From: Acidithiobacillus acidisediminis
Lineage (GTDB): Bacteria; Pseudomonadota; Gammaproteobacteria; Acidithiobacillales; Acidithiobacillaceae
Reading direction: 5' to 3'
Assembly: GCF_023277115.1 (NCBI RefSeq)
Contig: NZ_JALQCS010000001.1
Coordinates: 682,001-746,000, forward strand
DNA length: 64,000 nt
Both the position numbers and the translations under genes were made by a program. Positions 48,350 through 63,198 of the stretch are shown piece by piece. Each line of letters starts with the position of its first letter. Position 1 is the first letter of the stretch. Under the pieces are notes generated by a model. The model ran no database searches, was not told the DNA's origin, and saw nothing but the letters and a program-made list of their open reading frames with translations.

Positions 48350-51300
48350 TTGAACCAGGGCTTCGATGCGGCGCTGCTTACGGAAGTGCGGCTACCCGTC
48401 TGGGAAAATAGAGTTCCATCTGCACAGCTATGGCGAGTGAATGCCTGGCTCTTTCTTGCGGTGATTCTGGCAAGTTTTCTTGCCGGATTCCTGTTCCAGG
48501 GTGTGTTGCCCAGTCAGTATTGGCCAATCTGGCCAGCAGAGGGGGTGGCGGCTTACGGTATCCTGGCCTGGGGGCCACGGGTGATCCCTGGGCTCTTCCT
48601 TGGGCGCCTATTACTAAGCTTGGGCATTCTTCATTTTCCTCTGCCCATTACTCTTTGGGCCGCCCTAGTAAGCATTGCCGCGCCCTGGCTGGGGCGGCTA
48701 CTGCTGGTTCAACTGGTCCCAGATTGGAAAGGCTTTGGCAGTATTCGCCATACCATCGCCTTTCTGGTTCTTTTTTGTCTGATTCCGGCACTGTTAGGCG
48801 CAGCGTGGCTGATTGTCGGCATGCGAATCTTGACCCAAGTCACGGTGCCGTCCACAGAAAATCTGTTTTTCTACTGGGCGCTGGCCTCTTCTGCCTCCTT
48901 TCTGAATGTTGCTGCACTGTTGTTGGTGCTGCTGCACGGACACAATCAGGCCCCAATACGGTTACGACCTAGCTTTCCGCCCCTTGCCCTGCTGCTGTTG
49001 GCAGTGGTTTCCGCGCTTTTTTTTCAACATTTCTCGGTTGGTAGCTTAGCGGAAGCGAGTGTCGTTTTTTTGATTCTGCCGTTCATCTGGATGTTGTCCA
49101 AGTATCCGGCCCAGTTGGTGTACCCCTTGGCGAGCCTGAGTTTTCTGATTGCCCTGCTGGGAACTAGCCACGGCTTGGGGCCCTATGCCCATGATCAGCT
49201 GATCCTGCCCGAAACCTTGGCCTTGATCATTGGTTTGACCCTGGAGGTGATTGGTCTGCTGGCGGGGGCGATGATGGCAGAACGCAGTTCGGCGAGTGTG
49301 GCGTTGGAACGCATGAACCAAGAGCTGGAGCAACGGGTCTTTGCCCATTCCCGGGACTTGCGCCAACGCAATCGCGAGCTGCACATTCGCGATGCCTTTC
49401 TGCAATCGGTGACCGAGGTCAATCGACTGTTTTCTGCGCCAGAGGTGCAGGAATTACCGCAGATTCTGGAGCGCTTCTGTACTACTCTGGTATCCCGCAT
49501 GCAGCTCGCCGCCGTATGGATAGGGCGGGTGGAAGATGCCGAGAATCGTATTCAGGTGGCGGCAGCAGCAGGGCCTCTCGCAGCCCCTCTCTCCCGACTA
49601 CACCTTCATCGTTACGCGCGTCCGGGACAGCCGCAGTCTCCATCGGGTCGAGCGATTGAAATGCAGCGCACCCTGCTGTTCTCCGGGGATGACCCCCTAT
49701 TCGCTCCCTGGTTTTCCATCATCCAGCAATACCGCATGGGCGGCAGTATCTATTCGCCGTTTTCGTGGCCGGATGGAAGTTCTGGAGTGCTCGCCCTCTA
49801 TCGCTACGTGGACAACGCTTTTCCGGTAGAGGTCACAGAACTTTTGGAGCGGCTCAGTGCCGATCTGGCCGCTTACTTACGTCAGCGCCAGGTGGCACGA
49901 GAACTTGAGGATGCCCGTATTCTCCAGAAAACGATGCTGGTGAGCGGTGACATTGCGCTGCAAGCACGCGACGCGCCCCAGATGCTCCAGGCCATTTGCG
50001 ACGAGCTCATTCGTAGCCGTCTGTTCAACGCCGCATTCATCGTCCGTCCCGACGCAATGGGAGTTTTTCAGGCCCTTGCCCTGGCGGGTTTCCGCGTAGA
50101 TTGGATCATGCGTAGGCGCTGGACCATCCATCCGGACGATATACCCGACGGGCAATCGCTCACCTCCCGTGCATGGCGGGAGGGCCAAGATCTTGTGGTT
50201 CAGGATTATTTGGCCGCACTGGGTCGCGATGCCGCGTGGTTTGAAGAAGCCCAAGCGAACCGCTGGCATTCGGTTGCAACTTTGCCGATCTATCACCTCG
50301 ACGAGCGTTGGGCGATGCTGAATGTGATCAGCGATCGCGCGCATCTGTTCAATGAGGAGATCGTGGAAGTGCTGCGGCGGGTCGCACTGTTGGTCGGACA
50401 TGGTTTGGACGAGATCCATCTGAAAGGGCAATTGTCGCAGGAGCGACAACGGCAAAGCCATCTCGCGCGCCACGATGCCCTCACGGGTCTGGCCAATCGG
50501 CGTGGACTCACGGAGTTTTTGCGGCCGGCGATGGAGCGCGCGCTGCGCAACGATAGTTTGCTCGCGCTGGCGGTGCTGGATCTGGACGATTTCAAGCCAG
50601 TGAATGATCAATATGGTCATGCAGCGGGAGACCTCCTGTTGCAGGAAGTCGCCAATCGCTTGCGCCTCTCGTTGCGGCAGACCGACCATCTGGCGCGTTT
50701 GGGTGGAGATGAGTTCGTTCTGGTCTGGGATAATCTGCAGAGTCGGGAGCAGATCCACTCGGTTCTGGAAAAAATTGGCGATAGTCTGGCGCAGCCCTAT
50801 TTCCTGGCGGATTTGCCCATGATTCGCATCCGCCTGAGCGCTGGGATCACCTTCTTCCCCCAACCTGAGGCAAGCTCGGGAGATACCGACCTGTTACTGC
50901 GGCAAGCCGATCACGCCTTGTATGAAGCCAAGGAAAGCAAAAACACGCGACCCCATTTCTGGTCGTTCTTTGCCGATGAGGCAGCGAGCGAACGGCAGCG
51001 CATCCAGGAGTTGTTGCGGAGCGGGCAGATGCTTTTGCAATATCAGCCCATTCTCGATCAACGCTATGACCGTATTGTCGGTGTTGAGGCCTTGGCCCGC
51101 TTGGCAGGAGGAGAGAAGGCCATTTCGCCCGGAGACTTCCTGCCCTTCCTTTCTCCCGAGGACCAATGGACCCTCACCAAGCTAGTGCTGGCGCAAGTGG
51201 CTGCAGATTGGCAGAGCTGGGCGAGACAGGGGATCAGCTTGTGGGTCGCGTTGAACATCCCACCGAGTTTTCTCGCCAGTAAACAAAGTCTGCAGAGATT

Positions 51301-52111
51301 ACAGCAGCTGTTGGCGAGTTGTTCCGTTCCCCCTCAGCAGTTGGTTCTGGAAATTCTGGAAAGCGACGAATTGTTGTCTCTAGACCTGAGTGCGCAAGCA
51401 ATTCGCCAACTCCAGTCCCTGGGATATCGCGTGGGGCTCGATGACGTCGGTACGGGCTACGCCTCACTGCTCTATCTGAAAGAGTTGCCGATCAATGAGA
51501 TCAAGATCGACCAGGCCTTCGTTTTACACTTGGGAGAACATCCCAATGACCTGCATTTTCTTCGCGCCTTGCTCGATCTAGGGCAATCCCAAGGGTTGCA
51601 GGTGATTGTCGAAGGTGTGGAAAATCAGACGATTCGTAATGTTCTGCGGTTGATGCAGGTACCCTTGCTGCAAGGCTACGCCATCTCCCGTCCCATGTTT
51701 GCCGAGTCCCTCCCGGGCTGGCTGGCCGAGCGTTCTCTTGCGTCGCAGCAGGATGCCACAGCAGAGTACGATTTGCTTCAGCTGTACGCTGAAGTTGTTG
51801 ATTTTCACAAGACCATCCTTGCCTTGGTCAGTCTCAATCCGGACTGGTTTTTGCGCCTGGCGCCCTGGTCAGGGCAACGGTGTCCTATTCACAGTCGCTT
51901 GCATGAGCTGGACTTTGTCGGGCAAGAAGAGGTGCTGCAGGCGCATGAGGACTACCATCGTCAGTTGGAGGCGATCACGCATGCCTTGAAACAGGGATTG
52001 ACGGGGGAAATCGCGGCCTTGCAGGGCGCGGGGGAGCAGGTATTGCATTGCATTGAAGAGGTGATGCATCGTCCCCTGCGCCGCCTCTCCGACCGCCGCG
52101 TTCTCGCGTAG
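48350..52111 (+). CDS. MASE1-GAF-GGDEF-EAL protein with CZB-like C-terminal domain
   Basis: The 1253-residue protein has an N-terminal MASE1 membrane sensor (eight or so helices, residues about 25-320), a short coiled linker and two GAF-like regions (about 360-690). A GGDEF domain follows, with intact GGDEF near residue 785 and an RQTD inhibitory site five residues ahead. Then comes a complete EAL domain (VEALARL, ALNIPPSF, LEILESD, LDDVGTGYAS, EIKIDQ, VEGVEN, QGYAISRPM). The last 110 residues contain His1153, Cys1178, His1199 and His1203, an H-C-H-x3-H set like that of the zinc-binding CZB domain of E. coli DgcZ. Both synthase and phosphodiesterase activity are possible. The start is a TTG at 48350 with GGAG upstream. 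Confidence 0.87.
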   Translation: MNQGFDAALLTEVRLPVWENRVPSAQLWRVNAWLFLAVILASFLAGFLFQGVLPSQYWPIWPAEGVAAYGILAWGPRVIPGLFLGRLLLSLGILHFPLPITLWAALVSIAAPWLGRLLLVQLVPDWKGFGSIRHTIAFLVLFCLIPALLGAAWLIVGMRILTQVTVPSTENLFFYWALASSASFLNVAALLLVLLHGHNQAPIRLRPSFPPLALLLLAVVSALFFQHFSVGSLAEASVVFLILPFIWMLSKYPAQLVYPLASLSFLIALLGTSHGLGPYAHDQLILPETLALIIGLTLEVIGLLAGAMMAERSSASVALERMNQELEQRVFAHSRDLRQRNRELHIRDAFLQSVTEVNRLFSAPEVQELPQILERFCTTLVSRMQLAAVWIGRVEDAENRIQVAAAAGPLAAPLSRLHLHRYARPGQPQSPSGRAIEMQRTLLFSGDDPLFAPWFSIIQQYRMGGSIYSPFSWPDGSSGVLALYRYVDNAFPVEVTELLERLSADLAAYLRQRQVARELEDARILQKTMLVSGDIALQARDAPQMLQAICDELIRSRLFNAAFIVRPDAMGVFQALALAGFRVDWIMRRRWTIHPDDIPDGQSLTSRAWREGQDLVVQDYLAALGRDAAWFEEAQANRWHSVATLPIYHLDERWAMLNVISDRAHLFNEEIVEVLRRVALLVGHGLDEIHLKGQLSQERQRQSHLARHDALTGLANRRGLTEFLRPAMERALRNDSLLALAVLDLDDFKPVNDQYGHAAGDLLLQEVANRLRLSLRQTDHLARLGGDEFVLVWDNLQSREQIHSVLEKIGDSLAQPYFLADLPMIRIRLSAGITFFPQPEASSGDTDLLLRQADHALYEAKESKNTRPHFWSFFADEAASERQRIQELLRSGQMLLQYQPILDQRYDRIVGVEALARLAGGEKAISPGDFLPFLSPEDQWTLTKLVLAQVAADWQSWARQGISLWVALNIPPSFLASKQSLQRLQQLLASCSVPPQQLVLEILESDELLSLDLSAQAIRQLQSLGYRVGLDDVGTGYASLLYLKELPINEIKIDQAFVLHLGEHPNDLHFLRALLDLGQSQGLQVIVEGVENQTIRNVLRLMQVPLLQGYAISRPMFAESLPGWLAERSLASQQDATAEYDLLQLYAEVVDFHKTILALVSLNPDWFLRLAPWSGQRCPIHSRLHELDFVGQEEVLQAHEDYHRQLEAITHALKQGLTGEIAALQGAGEQVLHCIEEVMHRPLRRLSDRRVLA

Positions 52112-52126
52112 CCAAGGCCAATCCGA

Positions 52127-55100
52127 ATGCCGCCGCAGCCCTTGCAAGTGCCTGCAATACAACGCAAACGGCTGCGCCGGTTACTTCGTCTGTTTTTTCT
52201 TGGTGTTGGGCTGGTTTTTTTTCTGCTTTATCTCTGGCAGACCCATACCGAGGTCCAGCGCCAGCGAGAAAACAGCATTAATCTCAGAACGCATCAGTTG
52301 AATACCTATGCGCAACAAATTCGCCAAAAACTGGACCGGAATTTTCATGATCTCGAATTTTTGCGCAAGATCATACGCTATCGTCCGGGCCAGGAGCCTT
52401 TTCCCGATGCGGCGAGCCGCCTGGCGCTGGAGAGCTTTCAGAAGAGCCATCGGGGTTCTCTAGCCGTCAATATCCAAGATGCCGATGGTGGCACCATCGT
52501 TTGGTCCACCAACTGGTCTCAGGGGCAGAAAACCCTCGTCAGCAGTGCAGCGTTTCGCACTGCGAGCAATCAGCGCGACTGGCTGGTGGGCAATCCTCTG
52601 TATGCACGGCGTTATGGGAATTGGATCGTTCCCATGCGCCTGCCCCTGTATGATGCATCAGGGAAGACCGTGGGTTTTTTGGGGCGCCCAACGGCACTGC
52701 AACAGATGCTATCGGCGGTGTCGGAACCAGGGGTTTCTATCCTGCTTGAGCGCGCTGGTCATCCCTTCGTCGAGCGCAATGGGCACGGACAATGGGGCGG
52801 GGCGGCACCAAGGACCTCCATAACCACAGAGCAGTTACGCGTCTCCGTCCCTGGCTATCCATGGGATCTGGAAATGCGCTGGCAAAGAGCCGGTTGGTTC
52901 AGCAGCCTTCCTCTCGCGGTCTGGTTGCAGACCACTTTACCCTTCCTCATTCTCCTGTTGCTATTGGGATTTCTCTACCGAGTTGCCAGCAAGGCTCTCG
53001 ACTATCTGTTGGATTTGCGCCAATTTCAGAGTGCAGCCATTGCCATCCATCATCGTCTGTTACGCGTCAAAAATCGCGCGGAGCTATATCCTACCCTTTG
53101 TGATGCGCTGATTCAGGAAGGGGAGATCCACAGCTGTTTTTTGTTGCAGCGGGGGGCGGACGACAACGAGGTAACGTTGCTGGCAGTGGCGAGTGTGAGC
53201 GCCGAGTTCGCCGCCTTGCGCACCCTTCCCCCGCCAGCGGGTAGAGAGGATGGCGCGCCCATCACCCTCGTTACCAAAGCATTCCATCTTGGCAGTCTCC
53301 AACGGAGTGCGAACATTCAGGATTGTATTCTGGTCGCCTCTCTGCGTGCCGCTTTGCGGCGGGAGCGGCTCTGTTGTGCCCTTGCGCAACCCGTCTTTCT
53401 TGCCGAACAGCAGCAGCCCTGGGGGGTCTTGCTCTGCTTGCAACACTGGCAAAGTAGCGAGGGTGATGCCAGTGAGCAATTCCTGCTGCGGATCGCAGAA
53501 AGTTTTGGTCTGGTGCTGAGTCTCTGGCATCGCCGGGATGCCTTGGATCAGGCGCAAGGAATGTTGGATCTATTGGCAGACTTTGATCCCCTCACCGGTG
53601 CTGCCAATCGCGGACGCTTGGAGAAAAAGTACACCGAATTATATGCCCGTGTCGGGGAAGGGGGGGAGTCGGCGGCGCTGGCGATCGTCGATCTCGATGA
53701 TTTTCATCAGATCAATCATCGCCTTGGGCGAGACGCGGCCGACCGACTGCTGTACCTGCTGCGGGAGCGACTAGAGGGTGCGTTGGCTGCCAATGATCTG
53801 GTGGCGCGTCTTGGTGGTGACGAGTTCATTCTCCTGTTTTCCTTTGCAGGTGACGAGCAGAGTCTGCGACAGAAACTGATTGGGTTGGAAAGCGCTCTGG
53901 ATCCGGAGTTTGCATTGGATTCCGATACCCGTGTGCCATTGGAACTGAGTATTGGTGTAGCAGTGTTGGCAGGCACGGGCGAGCACTTTCTCGACAGCCT
54001 CCTCCGCAGTGCGCAGGAAGCGCTGCGGGTGGCCAAGATACACAAAAAGGATCGGCTGCATGCTTGGGTGATTGCGGGCCAAGCGCTGGAAACCAAGCCG
54101 CGAAACCGTGCCCAGCGTCTGCTGGCGAACAGTGCTCTGGAGGTCTGGTATCAGCCGATCATCGACGGACTGGATGGTCGTTTTCTAGGGGTGGAGGCCT
54201 TGGCCAGGTTGGCAGATGAGGGCGGGCAGATCCTAGCGCCAGCAGTGTTCCTGCCCTACCTCACGGCAGAAGAAGTTCAGAATCTAAGCTGGCAGCTTCT
54301 TTCCCAGGCACTGGAGGATATCGCGGCGCTGGAACGGGACGGCTGGCCTCTATGGCTGTCTTTCAATGTGCCGGCGGAATCCTTTACCCGTTACTGTCTA
54401 CCCTGCCTGCGTGGCGTCCTCGCCAACTGCCCGCTGTCGCCGCAGCACATCACCATGGAAATTCTGGAAAGTGGGGACTTTCTCGACCAACCACAGGCTA
54501 TTGAGGTGATGCGCGAGATTCGCGCCATGGGCATTCATCTGGCGCTCGACGACGTCGGTACGGCCTATGCTTCCCTGCAGCGCTTACGTGACCTGCCAGT
54601 GGACAAGATCAAGGTCGATCAACATTTTGTCCGTACTTTGCCAGAGCACCCACAGGACCTGCATTTCATTCGCATCCTACAGGACTTGGCGGAAGAGATG
54701 GGACTCGATATGGTCGTCGAGGGGGTGGAGAGTGCAGAAATCCTTGATGTGTTGCTGACTATTGGTGTCCGTCAGTTGCAGGGCTATGCCATCAGCCGAC
54801 CCGTTCCCATGAGAGGCCTGCGTCGCCTTCTGGAAGAACCCTTCCGTCTGACTGGTGCGAGGCCGGCAACGCTCCTCGGCCTGTACGCCGGCATCCTGAG
54901 TATCCACGCGGTGATCAAGAAAACGCTGCAGCCTCTCGGCAGGCAACTCTTCATTATGGAGAGCGCCTTGCGCCGCGACGGTCCCTATGATCGCGCCCTG
55001 ATTCGCTTGGGCTATGGTCCCGGCGAGCCATTGCATCTTGCCTACCGCCACTATCAGTCCATGCTATCGCGGGTTCTCGCGGGCGGTATCGACTCGACAC

Positions 55101-55216
55101 GTAATCAGTATTGGCAGGACGTCGAGGGCGCACTGCGTGCGCTGCAGACGGCAATTCTCGCTGAGCGGGAACGAGCAATTGCGACGGGTGAGAACAACGC
55201 GGTGCCCGGTGAATAG
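52127..55216 (+). CDS. Membrane sensor GGDEF-EAL protein with CZB-like remnant
   Basis: This 1029-residue protein has a membrane helix at residues 19-40, a periplasmic sensor region of about 220 residues (PDC/Cache-like by layout), a second helix near 265-285, and a GAF-like region (about 310-470). The GGDEF domain has an intact motif at 563-567, but alanine replaces the arginine of the RxxD inhibitory site. The EAL domain has all catalytic motifs (VEALARL, SFNVPAES, MEILESGDF, LDDVGTAYAS, KIKVDQ, VEGVES, QGYAISRPV). The C-terminal 120 residues repeat the LLGLYA....H pattern of the previous two proteins but lack the other ligand residues. It begins 15 bp after the preceding gene. Confidence 0.87.
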   Translation: MPPQPLQVPAIQRKRLRRLLRLFFLGVGLVFFLLYLWQTHTEVQRQRENSINLRTHQLNTYAQQIRQKLDRNFHDLEFLRKIIRYRPGQEPFPDAASRLALESFQKSHRGSLAVNIQDADGGTIVWSTNWSQGQKTLVSSAAFRTASNQRDWLVGNPLYARRYGNWIVPMRLPLYDASGKTVGFLGRPTALQQMLSAVSEPGVSILLERAGHPFVERNGHGQWGGAAPRTSITTEQLRVSVPGYPWDLEMRWQRAGWFSSLPLAVWLQTTLPFLILLLLLGFLYRVASKALDYLLDLRQFQSAAIAIHHRLLRVKNRAELYPTLCDALIQEGEIHSCFLLQRGADDNEVTLLAVASVSAEFAALRTLPPPAGREDGAPITLVTKAFHLGSLQRSANIQDCILVASLRAALRRERLCCALAQPVFLAEQQQPWGVLLCLQHWQSSEGDASEQFLLRIAESFGLVLSLWHRRDALDQAQGMLDLLADFDPLTGAANRGRLEKKYTELYARVGEGGESAALAIVDLDDFHQINHRLGRDAADRLLYLLRERLEGALAANDLVARLGGDEFILLFSFAGDEQSLRQKLIGLESALDPEFALDSDTRVPLELSIGVAVLAGTGEHFLDSLLRSAQEALRVAKIHKKDRLHAWVIAGQALETKPRNRAQRLLANSALEVWYQPIIDGLDGRFLGVEALARLADEGGQILAPAVFLPYLTAEEVQNLSWQLLSQALEDIAALERDGWPLWLSFNVPAESFTRYCLPCLRGVLANCPLSPQHITMEILESGDFLDQPQAIEVMREIRAMGIHLALDDVGTAYASLQRLRDLPVDKIKVDQHFVRTLPEHPQDLHFIRILQDLAEEMGLDMVVEGVESAEILDVLLTIGVRQLQGYAISRPVPMRGLRRLLEEPFRLTGARPATLLGLYAGILSIHAVIKKTLQPLGRQLFIMESALRRDGPYDRALIRLGYGPGEPLHLAYRHYQSMLSRVLAGGIDSTRNQYWQDVEGALRALQTAILAERERAIATGENNAVPGE

Positions 55217-56029: not shown

Positions 56030-57001
56030 ATGGACGCCAGCGATCAACAGCGCCTGCTGCGGGAAATGCTTTTTGCCCGACGTTTTGAAGAGCGTTGTGC
56101 CCAAGCCTATCAAGAACGAGAAATTGGCGGCTTTCTGCATCTGTATCCGGGGCAGGAAGCCTGCGCCATCGGCGTGCTGGAGAAGGCGCGCAAGGGGCAG
56201 GACTACGTCGTCACGGGTTACCGCGATCACATCCACGCGATTCAATGCGGAGCTGACCCCAAGGAGGTGATGGCGGAGCTGTATGGCAAGGAGACTGGTT
56301 CCTCGCGCGGACGCGGCGGTTCCATGCATATCTACGACGCGGAACACCATTTCATGGGTGGCTATGCGCTAGTGGGCGGACCATTTCCCCTCGCGGCAGG
56401 CTTTGCCAAGGCCATCAAGCTGCGCGGTGGGGACGAAATTGCCATCTGTTTCCTCGGTGATGGTGCCAATAATCAGGGAACGTTTCACGAAACCATGAAT
56501 ATGGCGAGTCTGTGGAAGTTGCCCGTGCTCTTCGTGTGTGAGAACAATCTCTATGGTATTGGTACGGCCATCGAGCGGGCCTCTTCCGAGATTAACCAGT
56601 ACCTGCGGGTGGCGCCCTATAAGATCGCTGCCTCGCAGGTAGATGGGCAGGACCTTGATATCGTCATGACCGAGGCGGAAAAGGCGATTCGGCACGTACG
56701 CGAAAAACGCGAACCCTATTTCCTCGAGCTGATGACCTATCGCCTGCGTGGTCACTCCATGTCCGACTCCGGCGCCTATCGTCCCAAGGAAGAGGTGGAA
56801 CGCTGGGCACAGCGCGATCCTATCGGGATCTACAAGCGTCGCCTCGAAGCGGCTGGCATTGTGGATGATGCCACCTTTCAGGCCATGGATGCAGAAATCC
56901 TGGAGCAGATCGAAAAAGAGATCGTGCGCTTTGCCCTCGAGAGCCCGGAACCTCGGGTGGAGGATTTGGAGCGTTACGTGTATGTAGCAGAGGGAGCGTA
57001 A
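56030..57001 (+). CDS. pdhA: Pyruvate dehydrogenase E1 component, alpha subunit
   Basis: E1 alpha and beta decarboxylate pyruvate with thiamine diphosphate and acetylate the lipoyl group of E2. The 323-residue protein has the thiamine diphosphate motif GDGANNQG...NN (FLGDGANNQGTFHETMNMA, then CENNLYGIGTA), GSSRGRGGSMH and the active-site loop YRLRGHSMSDSGAYR. The ATG at 56030 follows AGGAGG. A two-gene E1 rather than AceE-type E1 is used. pdhB follows 2 bp after its stop. Confidence 0.95.
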   Translation: MDASDQQRLLREMLFARRFEERCAQAYQEREIGGFLHLYPGQEACAIGVLEKARKGQDYVVTGYRDHIHAIQCGADPKEVMAELYGKETGSSRGRGGSMHIYDAEHHFMGGYALVGGPFPLAAGFAKAIKLRGGDEIAICFLGDGANNQGTFHETMNMASLWKLPVLFVCENNLYGIGTAIERASSEINQYLRVAPYKIAASQVDGQDLDIVMTEAEKAIRHVREKREPYFLELMTYRLRGHSMSDSGAYRPKEEVERWAQRDPIGIYKRRLEAAGIVDDATFQAMDAEILEQIEKEIVRFALESPEPRVEDLERYVYVAEGA

Positions 57002-57003
57002 GT

Positions 57004-57981
57004 ATGGCAGAAATGATGTATTGGCAGGCCATCCTGCGTGCCCACGATGAAGAGCTGGCGCGCGATCCATTGGTTTTTGCCATGGGCGAGGACATCGGCG
57101 TGGCCGGTGGCACCTACAAGGCCACCAGCGGTCTGTATGCCAAATATGGCGCGGAGCGAGTCATTGATACCCCGATCTCGGAAAACAGCTATACCGGTAT
57201 CGGTGTTGGTGCGGCAATGTTGGGCTGTCGTCCCATCGTCGAAATCATGAGCGTCAATTTCGCCTGGCTAGCGATGGATCAGCTGATGAATAACGCGGCG
57301 AAGATCCACTATATGTCCGGCGGCAAAATCCGTTGTCCCTTCGTCATGCGCGTACCCGGTGGCACCGCCCACCAGCTCGGCGCGCAGCACTCGGCGCGCA
57401 TGGAAAAGGTCTTCATGGGCATTTCCGGCCTGCGGGTTGTGACACCCGCGACGCCGCGAGATGCCTACGGCCTGCTCAAGAGTGCGGTGCGCTCCGATGA
57501 TCCGGTCGTCGTCATCGAACACGAGAGCATGTACAACCTCAAGGGCGAAGTGCCAGATGAGGAGTTCTTTACGCCGCTGGAGGGCGTGGAAATCCTGCGT
57601 CCAGGGCGGGATCTCAGTATCTTCGCCTACAACATCAGCGTGCATTGGGCCTTGCAGGCCGCTGAGCGCCTTGCGCAGGAGGGAATCGACGCCGAGGTGA
57701 TCGATCTGCGCGCCTTGAAGCCCCTTGATCGTGCTGGAATTGCGGCCAGTGTGCGCAAAACCCATCGCGCGATTGTTGTGGAGGAAGATGAAGCTCCCGT
57801 TGGGGTAGGGTCGGAAGTCATCGCCATCCTCAACGAAGAGGTCTTTTTCGAACTCGATGCGGCACCTGTGCGGGTGCATGCCCGGGACGTGCCGATCCCC
57901 TACAACCGTCGTCTGGAAAAGGCGGCTATCCCCAATGCCGACGAAGTCGTGGCTGCGGCCCGGAAACTGCTTGGCAAGTAA
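57004..57981 (+). CDS. pdhB: Pyruvate dehydrogenase E1 component, beta subunit
   Basis: The 325-residue protein is the partner of PdhA. It has the thiamine diphosphate glutamate region (FAMGEDIGVAGGTYKATSGL), DTPISENSYTGIGVGAAMLG, PFVMRVPGG, and the C-terminal transketolase-like part with VIDLRALKPLD and VVVEEDEAPVGVGSEV. It is followed after 48 bp by the E2-E3 fusion; the gap contains a GC-rich imperfect hairpin around GGGCGCC/GGCGCGCCC but no T tract. Confidence 0.95.
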   Translation: MAEMMYWQAILRAHDEELARDPLVFAMGEDIGVAGGTYKATSGLYAKYGAERVIDTPISENSYTGIGVGAAMLGCRPIVEIMSVNFAWLAMDQLMNNAAKIHYMSGGKIRCPFVMRVPGGTAHQLGAQHSARMEKVFMGISGLRVVTPATPRDAYGLLKSAVRSDDPVVVIEHESMYNLKGEVPDEEFFTPLEGVEILRPGRDLSIFAYNISVHWALQAAERLAQEGIDAEVIDLRALKPLDRAGIAASVRKTHRAIVVEEDEAPVGVGSEVIAILNEEVFFELDAAPVRVHARDVPIPYNRRLEKAAIPNADEVVAAARKLLGK

Positions 57982-58029
57982 GCTCCGGGCGCCATGGCGC
58001 GCCCGCCCCCTTTCCTGAGATGGTGAAAC

Positions 58030-61002
58030 ATGGCTGAAGCATACGTCATCAAAATGCCCCAATTGTCGGATACCATGACCGAGGGCGTGTTGGTCTCCTG
58101 GGAGAAAAGGCCCGGCGAGCGTGTCGAGCGAGGAGACGTCGTAGCCACGGTGGAAACCGACAAGGCAATCATGGATGTCGAGGTCTTCCGCGCCGGATAT
58201 CTCGCCGGACCCTTGACGGCGGTGGATGCCGTGGTGCCGGTGGGGGAGGCTATCGGTTATCTGGTCGACAGCCCTGACGCCGTAGTCGATGCTACCAGCC
58301 CGGATGTGGCGCCTGCGGCGACGGCTCCCACGGCGTCGGAAGTTGCGGAAGTGGCGCTGGGACAGGCCATCAAGATGCCGCAACTGTCGGATACGATGAC
58401 CGAGGGGGTGCTGGTTTCCTGGGAGAAGCAAGCAGGGGACCGAATTGAGCGGGGTGACGTGGTGGCTACGGTGGAAACCGACAAGGCGATCATGGATGTC
58501 GAGGTCTTCCGCGCCGGTTTTCTTTCTGGTCCTCTCCTGGCGGTGGACACGGTGGTGCCAGTAGGCGAGCCCATTGGATATCTCGTCGATAGTGTCGATC
58601 AGGTCTGTCGGGATACGCGAGCCGCCGCCAGCGAACAAAGGCCCCCGAGTGCGGTATCTGCCGCGCAAGGCCAAACGCCGGTGGCGCCGGCAAGCCGCGC
58701 CCCCGTCCCGCAGCCCACTGGTCGGGTTGTGGCCGGTAACCCAGTGGCGCGCCCCAGTTCGGGTGCCGCGAGTCCCTATGCCCGCTTGCTGGCGGGCGAA
58801 CAGGGGGTTTCCCTGGAAGGCTTGCGCGGCAGCGGTCCGGCAGGAGTGATCGTTGCGGCCGATGTGCTGGCGCAGAGTGCTGTCTCCTCGCCTGCGGTCG
58901 CCAGTGTGCCGGCAGCGGTTGCCGTCCCCGGTAATGGCCGCCCCATGACCGCCATCGAAAAGGCCATCAGTCAGGCGATGACGGCCTCGCTCAGTATTCC
59001 GGTCTTTCACGTGACGATGCATGTGCAGCCGGACGCGCTGTTGCGCGTTGCCAAAGCCAATGCGGTATCGGTCACGGTCGCCCTGGCCAAGGCTGCCTCT
59101 GCCGCGTTGAGCAAACACCCGCTGATCAATGCTGCCTACCAGCCGGGTGACCGTATCGTCGAGGATCGGCCGCAGGATATCGGCATTGCCGCCACGACGG
59201 AGGACGGCGGTCTGGTGGTGCCAGTGTTGCGCGATGTCGCGGCGCATTCCCTGAGCGAATTGCAAAGCGCGTGGAAGCCGCTGCTGGAAAAGGCGCGGAA
59301 ACGACGCATGAGCCCGGCAGAATATCAACACCCGACGTTTACGATCTCCAACATGGGCATGTATGGCATCAGTCAGTTTGACGCCATCGTCACGCCGGGC
59401 ACGGCAGCCATCCTCGCGGTGGCGGCGACGGGACCGCAAGGCATGCCCATCACCATTACCGCCGATCATCGGGTGGTGAACGGTGCCGAAGCAGCGGCCT
59501 TCCTGCAGGACCTCAAGACCGCGATCGAGCAGCCAGAGGCGTGGGCGGGAAGCGTGGGGCCGGTCATCCCGGAGGGAGATTACGACACCCAGGTTCTCGT
59601 CATTGGCGGTGGTCCGGGGGGTGAGGACTGTGCGCGGGACTTGGCCGAGCACGGCATTCGCGTGACCCTGGTCAACAATGCCCCGTACCCTGGCGGAGAG
59701 TGCCTCTGGCGGGGGTGTATTCCCTCCAAGGCCTGGCGCGCTGCGGCGGATCGCATACGCGATCGCGAACATGACGCCGCTATGGGCATCCAGTTGGGCG
59801 CAGCCAAACTCGATTGGGAGCAGCTGGAAACACATCGCCGTGGCATTCTGCAAACGCGCGGTGAAATGGCGCTGAAAACCGACCAGGGAATGAAAATCCA
59901 TGTCCTGGAGGGGATGGCTCGGTTCACCGGCCCACACACGGTGGAAATCAGCGGTAAGGATGCCCGTAGCCTGAGTTTCGGCGCCTGCGTCATCGCGACG
60001 GGCGCGCCGGCCTTCGTGCCACCGATCCCCGGCGCTCAGGAGGCCCTGGCAGCGGGGGCTGCCGTCACTTCGGACACGGTCTGGGAGCTGAGCGCTCCGC
60101 CGCAGCGTCTTTGCGTCATCGGCGGCGGCGCCATTGGCATGGAAATGGCGCAGATGTTCCATGACTTCGGTGCCGAGGTGCTGGTCCTGGAGGCGTTGCC
60201 CCGCCCCGTGGCTGAGATGGAAAAAGAGGTCGCGGAACAGTTGCTGACGGTATTGGGCAAGAACAGTCCGCGTCTGCGTGTGCAAACCAATGTGCAGGTG
60301 CAGAAGGTCAGCGGCGGGAAAGGGGATGTCACGGTGCAGTACCGCGACGCGGAAGGGCAGGAACAGCAGGTTCATGCCGAGCTGCTCCTGATCGCCACGG
60401 GCAAGCGCCCCCATACCGATGCCCTGCAGCTGGACAAGGCGGGAGTGCAATTGGGCGAGCGTGGTGCCATTGCCGTGGACGCCGCTTGTCGGACCAATGT
60501 GCCACATATCTTTGCGGTTGGTGACGTGATTGGCGGCTATATGCTCGCCCATACTGCTGGCCAGCAGGGGCGCGTGGCGGCGGCGAATCTCTTGGGCGAA
60601 CGGGCCCGCTATGACGCCAGCAAGGACAGTGGTGTCACCTTCACCCGCCCGCAGGTGGCGTTCGTCGGTCTCTCGGGCGAGCAGGCCAAGGCGGCCGGGA
60701 TGGATGTGGCGGAGGTCAAGGTGCCGTTGGCGATCGATGCCAAGGCCATGATGACCGGCGAAACCGACGGCCTGATCAAGCTGCTTGCGGACAAGAAGAC
60801 GCATCGTATCGTCGGCGTACATTTTCTGGCCGATCACGCCGATACCCTGGTGGGCGAAGCGGTAATGATGGTCCATGGTGAGCTGACGCTGGAACAGGTA
60901 GGGACTGCCATCCATCCGCATCCGACACAGACGGAGCTGTTTGGCGAAATGGCGCGACGGTTGCTCTCTCGCCTGCGCCGCTCAGCGCGCAACAGTCGCT
61001 GA
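58030..61002 (+). CDS. Fused dihydrolipoamide acetyltransferase (E2) and dihydrolipoamide dehydrogenase (E3)
   Basis: A single uninterrupted 990-residue protein joins two pyruvate dehydrogenase components. Domains in order: two lipoyl domains (about 5-80, lipoylated Lys45; about 112-187, Lys152), an Ala/Pro linker, a peripheral subunit-binding domain (about 247-282) and the E2 acyltransferase core (about 306-505, catalytic His480 in DHRVVNG). A complete E3 begins at Tyr518, with FAD loop GGGPGG, redox disulfide Cys558-Cys563 in ECLWRGCIPSK, NAD loop GGGAIGMEMA, and the catalytic pair His964-Glu969. In the E2 motif Asn replaces the usual Asp after the histidine. The two lipoyl domains are almost identical. 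Separate E2 and E3 genes are the norm. Confidence 0.94.
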   Translation: MAEAYVIKMPQLSDTMTEGVLVSWEKRPGERVERGDVVATVETDKAIMDVEVFRAGYLAGPLTAVDAVVPVGEAIGYLVDSPDAVVDATSPDVAPAATAPTASEVAEVALGQAIKMPQLSDTMTEGVLVSWEKQAGDRIERGDVVATVETDKAIMDVEVFRAGFLSGPLLAVDTVVPVGEPIGYLVDSVDQVCRDTRAAASEQRPPSAVSAAQGQTPVAPASRAPVPQPTGRVVAGNPVARPSSGAASPYARLLAGEQGVSLEGLRGSGPAGVIVAADVLAQSAVSSPAVASVPAAVAVPGNGRPMTAIEKAISQAMTASLSIPVFHVTMHVQPDALLRVAKANAVSVTVALAKAASAALSKHPLINAAYQPGDRIVEDRPQDIGIAATTEDGGLVVPVLRDVAAHSLSELQSAWKPLLEKARKRRMSPAEYQHPTFTISNMGMYGISQFDAIVTPGTAAILAVAATGPQGMPITITADHRVVNGAEAAAFLQDLKTAIEQPEAWAGSVGPVIPEGDYDTQVLVIGGGPGGEDCARDLAEHGIRVTLVNNAPYPGGECLWRGCIPSKAWRAAADRIRDREHDAAMGIQLGAAKLDWEQLETHRRGILQTRGEMALKTDQGMKIHVLEGMARFTGPHTVEISGKDARSLSFGACVIATGAPAFVPPIPGAQEALAAGAAVTSDTVWELSAPPQRLCVIGGGAIGMEMAQMFHDFGAEVLVLEALPRPVAEMEKEVAEQLLTVLGKNSPRLRVQTNVQVQKVSGGKGDVTVQYRDAEGQEQQVHAELLLIATGKRPHTDALQLDKAGVQLGERGAIAVDAACRTNVPHIFAVGDVIGGYMLAHTAGQQGRVAAANLLGERARYDASKDSGVTFTRPQVAFVGLSGEQAKAAGMDVAEVKVPLAIDAKAMMTGETDGLIKLLADKKTHRIVGVHFLADHADTLVGEAVMMVHGELTLEQVGTAIHPHPTQTELFGEMARRLLSRLRRSARNSR

Positions 61003-62034: not shown

Positions 62035-63198
62035 ATGACCGATGCCACCGTCGTCCCCGGACTGGAAGGGGTTCCCGCTACCCACTCGGCCATCTCGAAC
62101 ATCGATGGTGCTGCTGGCCAGCTCTCCTACCGCGGCTATCCGATCGCCGAACTCGTAGCGCATAGCAACTATGAGGAAGTGGCACTGCTACTCCTCGATG
62201 GGGAACTGCCGCGGGCCAAGGATCTGCAGCGCTTCGACGCGGGCCTGCGCGGGCATCGCCAAGTCAAGTACAACGTGCGCGAGATCATGAAGTTCTTGCC
62301 AGTGACGGGCCACCCCATGGATATGCTCCACTGCACCATCGCGAGCCTGGGGATGTTCTATCCGCAGCAGGAGCTGTCGGATGCGGAACGCGATAACGCC
62401 TCACACCTCGATGCCATGGCGATGCGCCTCATCGCTCGGGTGCCGACGATTGTCGCCATGTGGGATCAGATGCGCTTTGGCAATGACCCCATCCCGCCGC
62501 GCAGTGATCTTTCCCATGCGGCAAACTTTCTTTACATGCTGCACGGACGCGAGCCGGATCCATTGCACGCGCGTATTCTCGATGCCTGTTTTATCCTGCA
62601 TGCAGAACATACCATCAATGCCAGCACCTTTTCGGTCTTGGTCAGTACCTCCACTCTGACCAACCCCTACCACGTCATTGGCGGGGCAATCGGCACCCTG
62701 GCCGGACCACTGCATGGCGGTGCCAATCAGCGGGTAGTGGAGATGCTGGAGGAGATTGGTAGCGTCGACAATGTCGAGTCTTTCTTGGAGGCGCGCCTGG
62801 CGGCGAAGGAAAAGATTTGGGGTTTTGGCCACCGGGTCTATAAAACCACGGATCCGCGTGCCGCGATCCTCAAAGAAATGATGCAGGATCTGGCGCAGGC
62901 CGGGCATCTGCGGCAGAGCAAGCAGTTCGCCATTGCCCAGGCGCTCGAGGCAGCAGCGGCGGAACGCCTGGGGCCAAAAGGTATCCACGCCAATGTCGAC
63001 TTCTATTCCGGGGTCCTGTATCACGAAATGGGCATTCGCAGTGACCTCTTCACCCCCATCTTTGCCATGGCGCGCAGCGTCGGGTGGCTGGCGCACTGGC
63101 GCGAGCAGTTGAGCAATAATCGCATTTTTCGCCCCACCCAGAACTATACCGGTGCAGCGCTGCGTAGCTACCAAGCGCTGGCGGAGCGTTCAGCATGA
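62035..63198 (+). CDS. gltA: Citrate synthase
   Basis: The 387-residue enzyme condenses acetyl-CoA, supplied by the upstream pyruvate dehydrogenase, with oxaloacetate. It is of the short dimeric type, beginning VPGLEGVPATHSAISNIDG. The three catalytic residues are in GPLHGGANQ (His), GFGHRVYK (His) and NVDFYSGVLY (Asp). Methylcitrate synthases look similar, but no prp genes are nearby, so citrate synthase is the likelier role. Its stop overlaps the gshA start by 4 bp, suggesting co-expression. Confidence 0.92.
   Translation: MTDATVVPGLEGVPATHSAISNIDGAAGQLSYRGYPIAELVAHSNYEEVALLLLDGELPRAKDLQRFDAGLRGHRQVKYNVREIMKFLPVTGHPMDMLHCTIASLGMFYPQQELSDAERDNASHLDAMAMRLIARVPTIVAMWDQMRFGNDPIPPRSDLSHAANFLYMLHGREPDPLHARILDACFILHAEHTINASTFSVLVSTSTLTNPYHVIGGAIGTLAGPLHGGANQRVVEMLEEIGSVDNVESFLEARLAAKEKIWGFGHRVYKTTDPRAAILKEMMQDLAQAGHLRQSKQFAIAQALEAAAAERLGPKGIHANVDFYSGVLYHEMGIRSDLFTPIFAMARSVGWLAHWREQLSNNRIFRPTQNYTGAALRSYQALAERSA

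Follow-up and report, generated by a model that had tools for sequence, protein, structure and literature searches.

In the textbook architecture of the 2-oxoacid dehydrogenase complexes an E2 cage forms the core, to which E1 and E3 are docked by a binding domain; the active sites of E2 form in trimers and those of E3 in dimers. In the Neisseria protein P64K (5u25) we presume that only a lipoyl domain lies before E3, with neither a peripheral subunit-binding domain (PSBD) nor an E2 core. The actinobacteria are presented as departing from a fixed E2-cage architecture (PMC10415282): their OdhA/KGD carries E2o and E1o on one chain, assembles as a homohexamer, has a substitute for the hairpin close to the three-fold axis, has lost the C-terminal trimer-trimer contact, and is furthermore characterized by a 17-residue linker, a lipoyl arm supplied in trans and a phenylalanine-containing insertion at the C-terminus of E2. 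As cited in the same source, actinobacterial AceF is trimer-only by way of a 3-residue insertion. Here we analyse a stretch of 64,000 nucleotides from Acidithiobacillus acidisediminis (contig NZ_JALQCS010000001.1, positions 682,001 to 746,000; hereafter the window), in which one gene at 58030-61002 (+) is predicted to join the E2 and E3 of a pyruvate dehydrogenase complex in a single chain of 990 residues (103.6 kDa). No description of such an E2-E3 fusion was found among the listed titles and beginnings of abstracts of an open-access library (subscription papers and preprints lay outside the scope of the search).

The fused gene, its distribution and its operon

We consider it very likely that this gene encodes the E2 and E3 of pyruvate dehydrogenase as one working polypeptide. 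The domain order is lipoyl-lipoyl-PSBD-E2 core-E3, the catalytic residues of both enzymes are intact, the gene belongs to an E1alpha-E1beta-E2E3 operon, and the arrangement is widely conserved and associated with RuBisCO. As the first-pass annotation of the window had read it, a single frame runs from the first lipoyl domain to the C-terminus of E3 with zero internal stops, the only stop in the translation being the terminal one. Judged from its relatives, the fusion is real, widespread and conserved; it would act like a pyruvate dehydrogenase complex minus one defining trait, the separate E3.

E2 and E3 share one open frame in all of the 86 loci that we compared (the best 80 of 508 confirmed relatives in a contig scan with the full-length query, together with L001 and with L009-L013 from the genus of the window), which comprise 84 distinct sequences; L013, L025 and L057 are incomplete (contig ends or truncated). 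Since the best 80 were ranked by full-length match, and are hence biased to fusions, prevalence was drawn only from an even sample over the class, in which the fusion was counted in 62 of 276 genomes (37 families). This count keeps 62 of 65 listed genomes (G011, G169 and G224, with 33-35% matches containing stops, were dropped); the match spans the junction in 60 of them, among which G073 and G195 show one stop inside the match, and in G114 and G192 it extends only from the junction on, within frames of 1051 and 882 residues. The weaker matches of the class sample (33-37% identity) resemble ordinary E2-stop-E3 operons, and no standalone close relative of the E3 was found in the 276 genomes at E <= 1e-90 (best four candidates per genome scored). 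A phylum sample of 397 genomes yielded three fusions at E <= 1e-80, none of them outside this class. Within the genus of the window 6/8 genomes have a fusion match, the two without it being smaller assemblies (91% and 69% complete), and the named carriers include Acidithiobacillus, Thiobacillus, Hydrogenophilaceae, Thiohalobacter, Thiohalophilus and Chromatiales. As the relatives carry the same one-frame fusion with a conserved junction across 86 loci and 84 distinct sequences, a sequencing, assembly or annotation artefact was rejected, having next to no probability. Two of the relatives (L042 and L064) lie on contigs of metagenome-assembled genomes labelled Spirochaetia and Desulfobacteraceae and branch inside the proteobacterial tree, for which mis-binning and transfer are both possible.

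The residues on which catalysis depends are retained throughout the alignment of the 84 distinct fusions (denominators being the sequences with a residue at that position). The lipoylatable lysines of the two lipoyl domains, which align as near copies of each other, are kept in 82/82 (Lys45) and 83/83 (Lys152) sequences. Ser440, His480 and Asn484 of E2 are invariant (84/84) and by motif reading probably correspond to the E2 residues Ser558, His610 and Asn614, which the title of PDB entry 1dpb lists. The claim that all E3 catalytic parts are intact proved correct, the redox pair Cys558/Cys563 (CxxxxC) being present in 84/84 and the pair His964/Glu969 in 83/83 fusions. The E3 part matches the fold of lipoamide dehydrogenases in a search with the whole model (best Z 43.4, 2eq7). 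As E3 matches filled that listing, the E2 core was modelled and searched separately, giving a confident model with a predicted local distance difference test (pLDDT) score of 92.6, whose best PDB match is pig heart E2 (Z 28.3; OdhA, Z 25.1). The AlphaFold model of the whole protein is a single chain with a predicted template modelling (pTM) score of 0.57, and its domain placement was not interpreted. In the C-terminal tail that follows the E3 active site (window 60955-60999) R976, R977, R981 and R984 are invariant in 68/68 aligned fusions.

The features of the locus are as follows (window coordinates, strand, identity and basis).

56030..57001, +, E1 alpha (pdhA-type, thiamine diphosphate (ThDP) enzyme); TIGR03182 410.1 bits, above the cut-off of 393.85; PF00676
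57004..57981, +, E1 beta; NF006667 380.1 bits, above the cut-off of 321; Transket_pyr and Transketolase_C
58030..61002, +, E2-E3 fusion, 990 residues, 103.6 kDa; translation, Pfam, one frame across relatives
58045..58275, +, lipoyl domain 1 (limits hand-drawn), Lys45 (58162-58164) predicted lipoylated; second PF00364 (Biotin_lipoyl) stretch and alignment to domain 2
58366..58581, +, lipoyl domain 2, Lys152 (58483-58485); best PF00364 stretch (residues 113-184)
58768..58869, +, PSBD, residues 247-280; PF02817 (E3_binding), E 5.6e-11 for the whole protein
58939..59544, +, E2 acetyltransferase core, residues 304-505, with Ser440, His480 and Asn484; Pfam (2-oxoacid_dh), alignment, structure model
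59545..59580, +, E2-E3 linker, residues 506-517, holding GTG 59554-59556; alignment (Gly516 invariant, Pro514 in 81/84)
59590..60570, +, E3 FAD/NAD part, residues 521-847, redox Cys558/Cys563 (59701-59703, 59716-59718); Pfam (Pyr_redox_2)
60631..60951, +, E3 dimerisation domain, residues 868-974, His964/Glu969 (60919-60921, 60934-60936); Pfam (Pyr_redox_dim)
62035..63198, +, citrate synthase, a neighbour outside the complex; PF00285, E 2.9e-135

The genes of the ThDP-dependent E1 alpha and E1 beta lie directly upstream of the fusion, both above NCBIfam cut-offs for pyruvate dehydrogenase E1, and from the family of E1 alpha (TIGR03182) together with the adjoining citrate synthase we infer that the substrate is pyruvate; the citrate synthase would consume the acetyl-CoA that the complex delivers. 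Both E1 genes are found upstream on the same strand in 80/86 loci. Four of the remaining six have fewer than 750 bases upstream, L088 has 1.3 kb, and L093, despite 8 kb of upstream sequence, has E1 beta only, with no E1 alpha on the same strand within 3 kb. Base composition per codon position is alike before, within and after the E2-E3 junction. An antisense frame of 1217 residues (window 57268-60921, -) lies opposite E1 beta and the fusion; high-GC codon usage probably explains it. Farther upstream, two large adjoining proteins (48350-52111 and 52127-55216) each show GGDEF motifs and an EAL-like stretch when read from the sequence.

Junction, E2 hairpin and possible assembly

With E3 covalently attached, E2 and E3 stand at 1:1 as long as the chain is neither cleaved nor begun anew at an internal start, as the first-pass annotation had argued in claiming one E3 per E2. 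A stop or frameshift near 59550-59585, which it had named as grounds for giving up the fusion, does not occur in the sequence as deposited, and in other genomes the frame continues across this stretch. It erred, however, in reporting no start codon in the junction, where an in-frame GTG occurs at Val509 (59554-59556). The gene could thus be fused and additional free E3 be made by way of this internal start or by cleavage of the linker, which we regard as very improbable. Start codons are common around the junction of the 86 loci (ATG in 39/86, only GTG/TTG in 44/86), and some lineages have Ala/Ser-rich linkers, as such restarting or cleavage might lead one to expect; the start codon itself is unconserved, given that L009, 85% identical, has no ATG, GTG or TTG there and that 3/86 loci have none. 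Moreover, Pro502, Trp505 and Gly516 are invariant at the junction and Pro514 is kept in 81/84, and the standalone close E3 is missing from every genome of the class sample. The spacing between two fixed motifs of E2 and E3 is lineage-dependent (40 residues in 50/84 sequences, at most 66). Linkers likewise differ by lineage (L001, L051, L055, L081 and L087), being short in the relatives of the window, long in L051 (up to 66 residues between the fixed motifs) and Ala-rich in several others.

The fused E2 cores depart from those of unfused operons at two places. The stretch before the DHR motif, in which the E2 hairpin lies, measures 14 residues in 84/84 fusions (pattern matching in 74, reading by eye in 10) and 26-27 residues in 20 unfused operon E2s (19 by pattern; L103, with 26, by eye), so that the fused cores are short of 12 hairpin residues present in 20/20 of the unfused E2s compared. 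At the tip of the fused E2 the invariant Trp505 stands in place of a Leu/Met-rich tip. That these traits are a consequence of fusion was rejected, since L002, a free second E2 in the genome of the window, has both (a pre-DHR stretch of 15 residues and a Trp tip); they may have come before the fusion. L002 belongs to a second E1alpha/E1beta/E2 set (L122:6931-10168, -; G000:C1 about 1642930-1646170), which has one lipoyl domain and near which no E3 gene was seen (its neighbours being acetate kinase, phosphoglycerate mutase and phosphoenolpyruvate synthase); this set would have to borrow an E3.

If the trimers of E2 persist along with the dimers of E3, a closed particle needs a multiple of six chains. 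We therefore tentatively propose, with somewhat less than even confidence, a closed assembly of 6n chains (6, 12, 24 or 60) in which E3 dimers would bridge E2 trimers. Within this series our first guess would be a small OdhA-like form of two trimers and three dimers (about 620 kDa), the small assembly being favoured because the fused E2 has a shorter hairpin and a changed tip, where OdhA has a replaced hairpin and no C-terminal contact between trimers. The fused chain may instead still build the canonical 24-mer or 60-mer E2 cage, with E3 as an appendage, a prospect that we hold to be somewhat unlikely. The E2 fold, which is intact and comes closest to E2s that form cages (pig heart E2, Z 28.3), and the longer linkers of some lineages speak for a cage; the loss of 12 hairpin residues in 84/84 fusions and the altered C-terminal tip speak against it. 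Additions to the C-terminus of E2p in engineered shells are located on the inner side, and 24 or 60 copies of an E3 of about 50 kDa would be too large for the interior. The first-pass annotation had held that the core assembly must differ from known complexes: the loss of the hairpin and the Trp tip in 84/84 fusions agree with a different assembly, but the sequence does not force it.

As E3 needs no docking in a fused chain, the PSBD deserves separate attention. It varies less than the linkers on either side of it (mean entropy 1.21 vs 2.57 and 2.14), and R252 is kept in 83/83 fusions. We take R135, R156, D344 and E431 to be the residues of E3-PSBD binding in Bacillus/Geobacillus; a literature search for their roles found nothing. 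The position presumed equivalent to PSBD R156 is mostly Val or Ala in the fusions (54 and 16 of 83), and that presumed equivalent to the PSBD-binding Glu431 of E3 has S, A, H or T instead in 83/83. As a control, this last position was read in 20 unfused E2/E3 operons, whose types were assigned by reading, without a family search: Glu occurs in 15/15 operons read as 2-oxoglutarate type, and N, N, T, T and E in five read as pyruvate type (E2 matched over the whole core). Since 4/5 separate pyruvate-type E3s also lack the Glu, its loss is not diagnostic and does not mean that binding of E3 has gone, and the missing E3-PSBD salt bridge was dropped as proof that the PSBD serves E1 only. That the PSBD now serves E1 alone is nevertheless plausible. 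In the working cycle E1 (alpha2beta2), held by the PSBD, would take pyruvate and acetylate a lipoyl arm; the arm would visit the E2 core, where acetyl-CoA would form, and then the E3 joined to that core, with reoxidation of the dithiol and production of NADH there.

Autotrophy and the supply of E3

A match to the large chain of RuBisCO (PF00016, E <= 1e-20) is present in 60/62 fused and 88/214 unfused genomes of the class sample (Fisher p 5e-17), or in 60/62 vs 77/214 when 11 weak hits that may be RuBisCO-like proteins are left out. The fusion is thus associated with Calvin-cycle autotrophy as predicted from gene content, and the host of the window is probably a CO2-fixing bacterium. The E1 of 2-oxoglutarate dehydrogenase occurs in 32/62 fused vs 181/214 unfused genomes, and the complex could serve as a biosynthetic supply of acetyl-CoA in autotrophs, about half of which (30/62 fused) would be without a 2-oxoglutarate complex. 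Among the fused genomes a free lpd (TIGR01350, E <= 1e-118) goes with the latter complex, being found in 31/32 genomes with the 2-oxoglutarate E1 vs 4/30 without it (G134, G195 and G234 near the E limit, G236 strong). Because of this pairing the tethered E3 appears to be dedicated to pyruvate dehydrogenase, insofar as the two E3 types surveyed (TIGR01350 and NF004943) are concerned; the second of these is above its cut-off in only 2/62 fused genomes, namely that of the window and G255 of the same family.

The check for a separate lpd in the genome of the window, suggested by the first-pass annotation, gave a divided answer: no TIGR01350 protein was found at E <= 1e-118, and another protein, L004, scores above the cut-off of NF004943, a model labelled dihydrolipoyl dehydrogenase in NCBIfam. 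The 2-oxoglutarate E1 was not found in this genome at the threshold used for the class sample. Other E3-related proteins encoded there are a glutathione reductase, a mercury reductase and L005, which is below every listed cut-off.

A wider duty for the tethered E3 is suggested by sulfur oxidation. Cao et al. 2018 proposed that a dihydrolipoyl dehydrogenase reoxidises the lipoate-binding proteins of the sHdr pathway, and that in bacteria the E3 common to 2-oxoacid dehydrogenases may serve LbpA (PMC6067878). The tethered E3 might then also reoxidise other lipoyl proteins, chiefly those of sHdr, and the fusion would matter for that purpose, which we judge quite unlikely. The proposal of a shared E3 speaks in its favour (PMC6067878), as does the presence of the fusion in 17 of the 23 class-sample genomes with a LipS1-like gene (E <= 1e-40, all 23 matches being below the curated cut-off of the model); 14 of these 17 are without a TIGR01350 lpd, and 12 of the 14 also without an NF004943-type E3. 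The genome of the window, moreover, has a cluster of Hdr-like type that includes two GcvH/LbpA-like genes. Against it, 45/62 fused genomes are without a LipS1 match at this threshold, and the genome of the window could draw on L004 as another protein of E3 type. As most fused genomes thus have no LipS1 match, sHdr as the general driver of fusion is not supported. In the 12 fused LipS1 genomes without either type of free E3 at the thresholds used, the tethered E3 or an E3 of an unsurveyed type would have to serve, and the fusion sharpens the question of which E3 serves the lipoate-binding proteins in sulfur oxidation. The Hdr-like cluster of the window's genome lies at L123:2460-11719 (G000:C1 about 2718460-2727720) and holds HdrA-like, LipS1-like and lipoate-ligase-like genes, all below curated cut-offs, together with two of the five GcvH-like genes genome-wide.

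A more far-reaching reading would be that CO2-fixing Proteobacteria possess a one-chain pyruvate dehydrogenase whose closed, cage-free core of 6n chains is held by E3 dimers and not by E2-E2 contacts, and whose tethered E3 is also the missing sHdr dehydrogenase of those sulfur oxidisers that have no free lpd. As a whole we hold this combination to be rather doubtful. Several points weigh against the main reading, of one working E2-E3 polypeptide and its proposed assembly. The fusion stays below the cut-offs of the NCBIfam equivalogs for lpd (TIGR01350, 385.9 < 408.8 bits) and for mitochondrial-type E2 (TIGR01349, 312.3 < 445 bits). The spacing varies between lineages from 40 to 66 residues, so that no rigid E2-E3 geometry is conserved, and the short hairpin and Trp tip of the unfused L002 weaken the claim that these traits evolved for the fusion. 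No OdhA-type phenylalanine-containing insertion was seen in the fusion, the invariant Trp505 occupying that area. Furthermore, the genome associations (RuBisCO and lpd) carry no correction for shared ancestry, 2 of the 62 fused genomes have no RuBisCO match, and G236 combines a strong TIGR01350 match with no match to the 2-oxoglutarate E1.

Comparison with described complexes

The fusion represents an apparent further departure from a fixed architecture, in 62/276 class genomes and with E2:E3 fixed at 1:1. It offers natural material on what decides between a cage, a hexamer or another form, and on the function of the PSBD once E3 needs no docking, and the joining of E2 and E3 may change how a textbook complex is put together. 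With the classical pyruvate dehydrogenase complex of mitochondria and many bacteria it shares the enzymes, the lipoyl-PSBD-E2 core and the E3 domains; it differs in its covalent E3, in the shortened E2 hairpin and in the Trp-containing tip that runs into E3. One defining trait of that complex, a separate E3 recruited by the PSBD, is absent, as E3 sits in the E2 chain. P64K/5u25 resembles the fusion in that additional domains precede E3, but in the fusion a PSBD and an E2 core lie between.

On the actinobacterial side there is a likeness to OdhA: both place two 2-oxoacid dehydrogenase enzymes on each chain, one obligately trimeric and one dimeric, across a short linker. The E2 hairpin is altered in both, its equivalence being judged by where it lies relative to the DHR motif, just ahead of it, and not by superposed structures. 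However, it is E1 that is joined to E2 in OdhA and E3 in the fusion, and the fused chain carries two lipoyl domains and a PSBD of its own, whereas OdhA uses a lipoyl arm in trans. Actinobacterial AceF, as cited in PMC10415282, would resemble the fusion in an E2 that is possibly incapable of trimer-trimer contacts; it differs in being unfused and in reaching that state by a 3-residue insertion.

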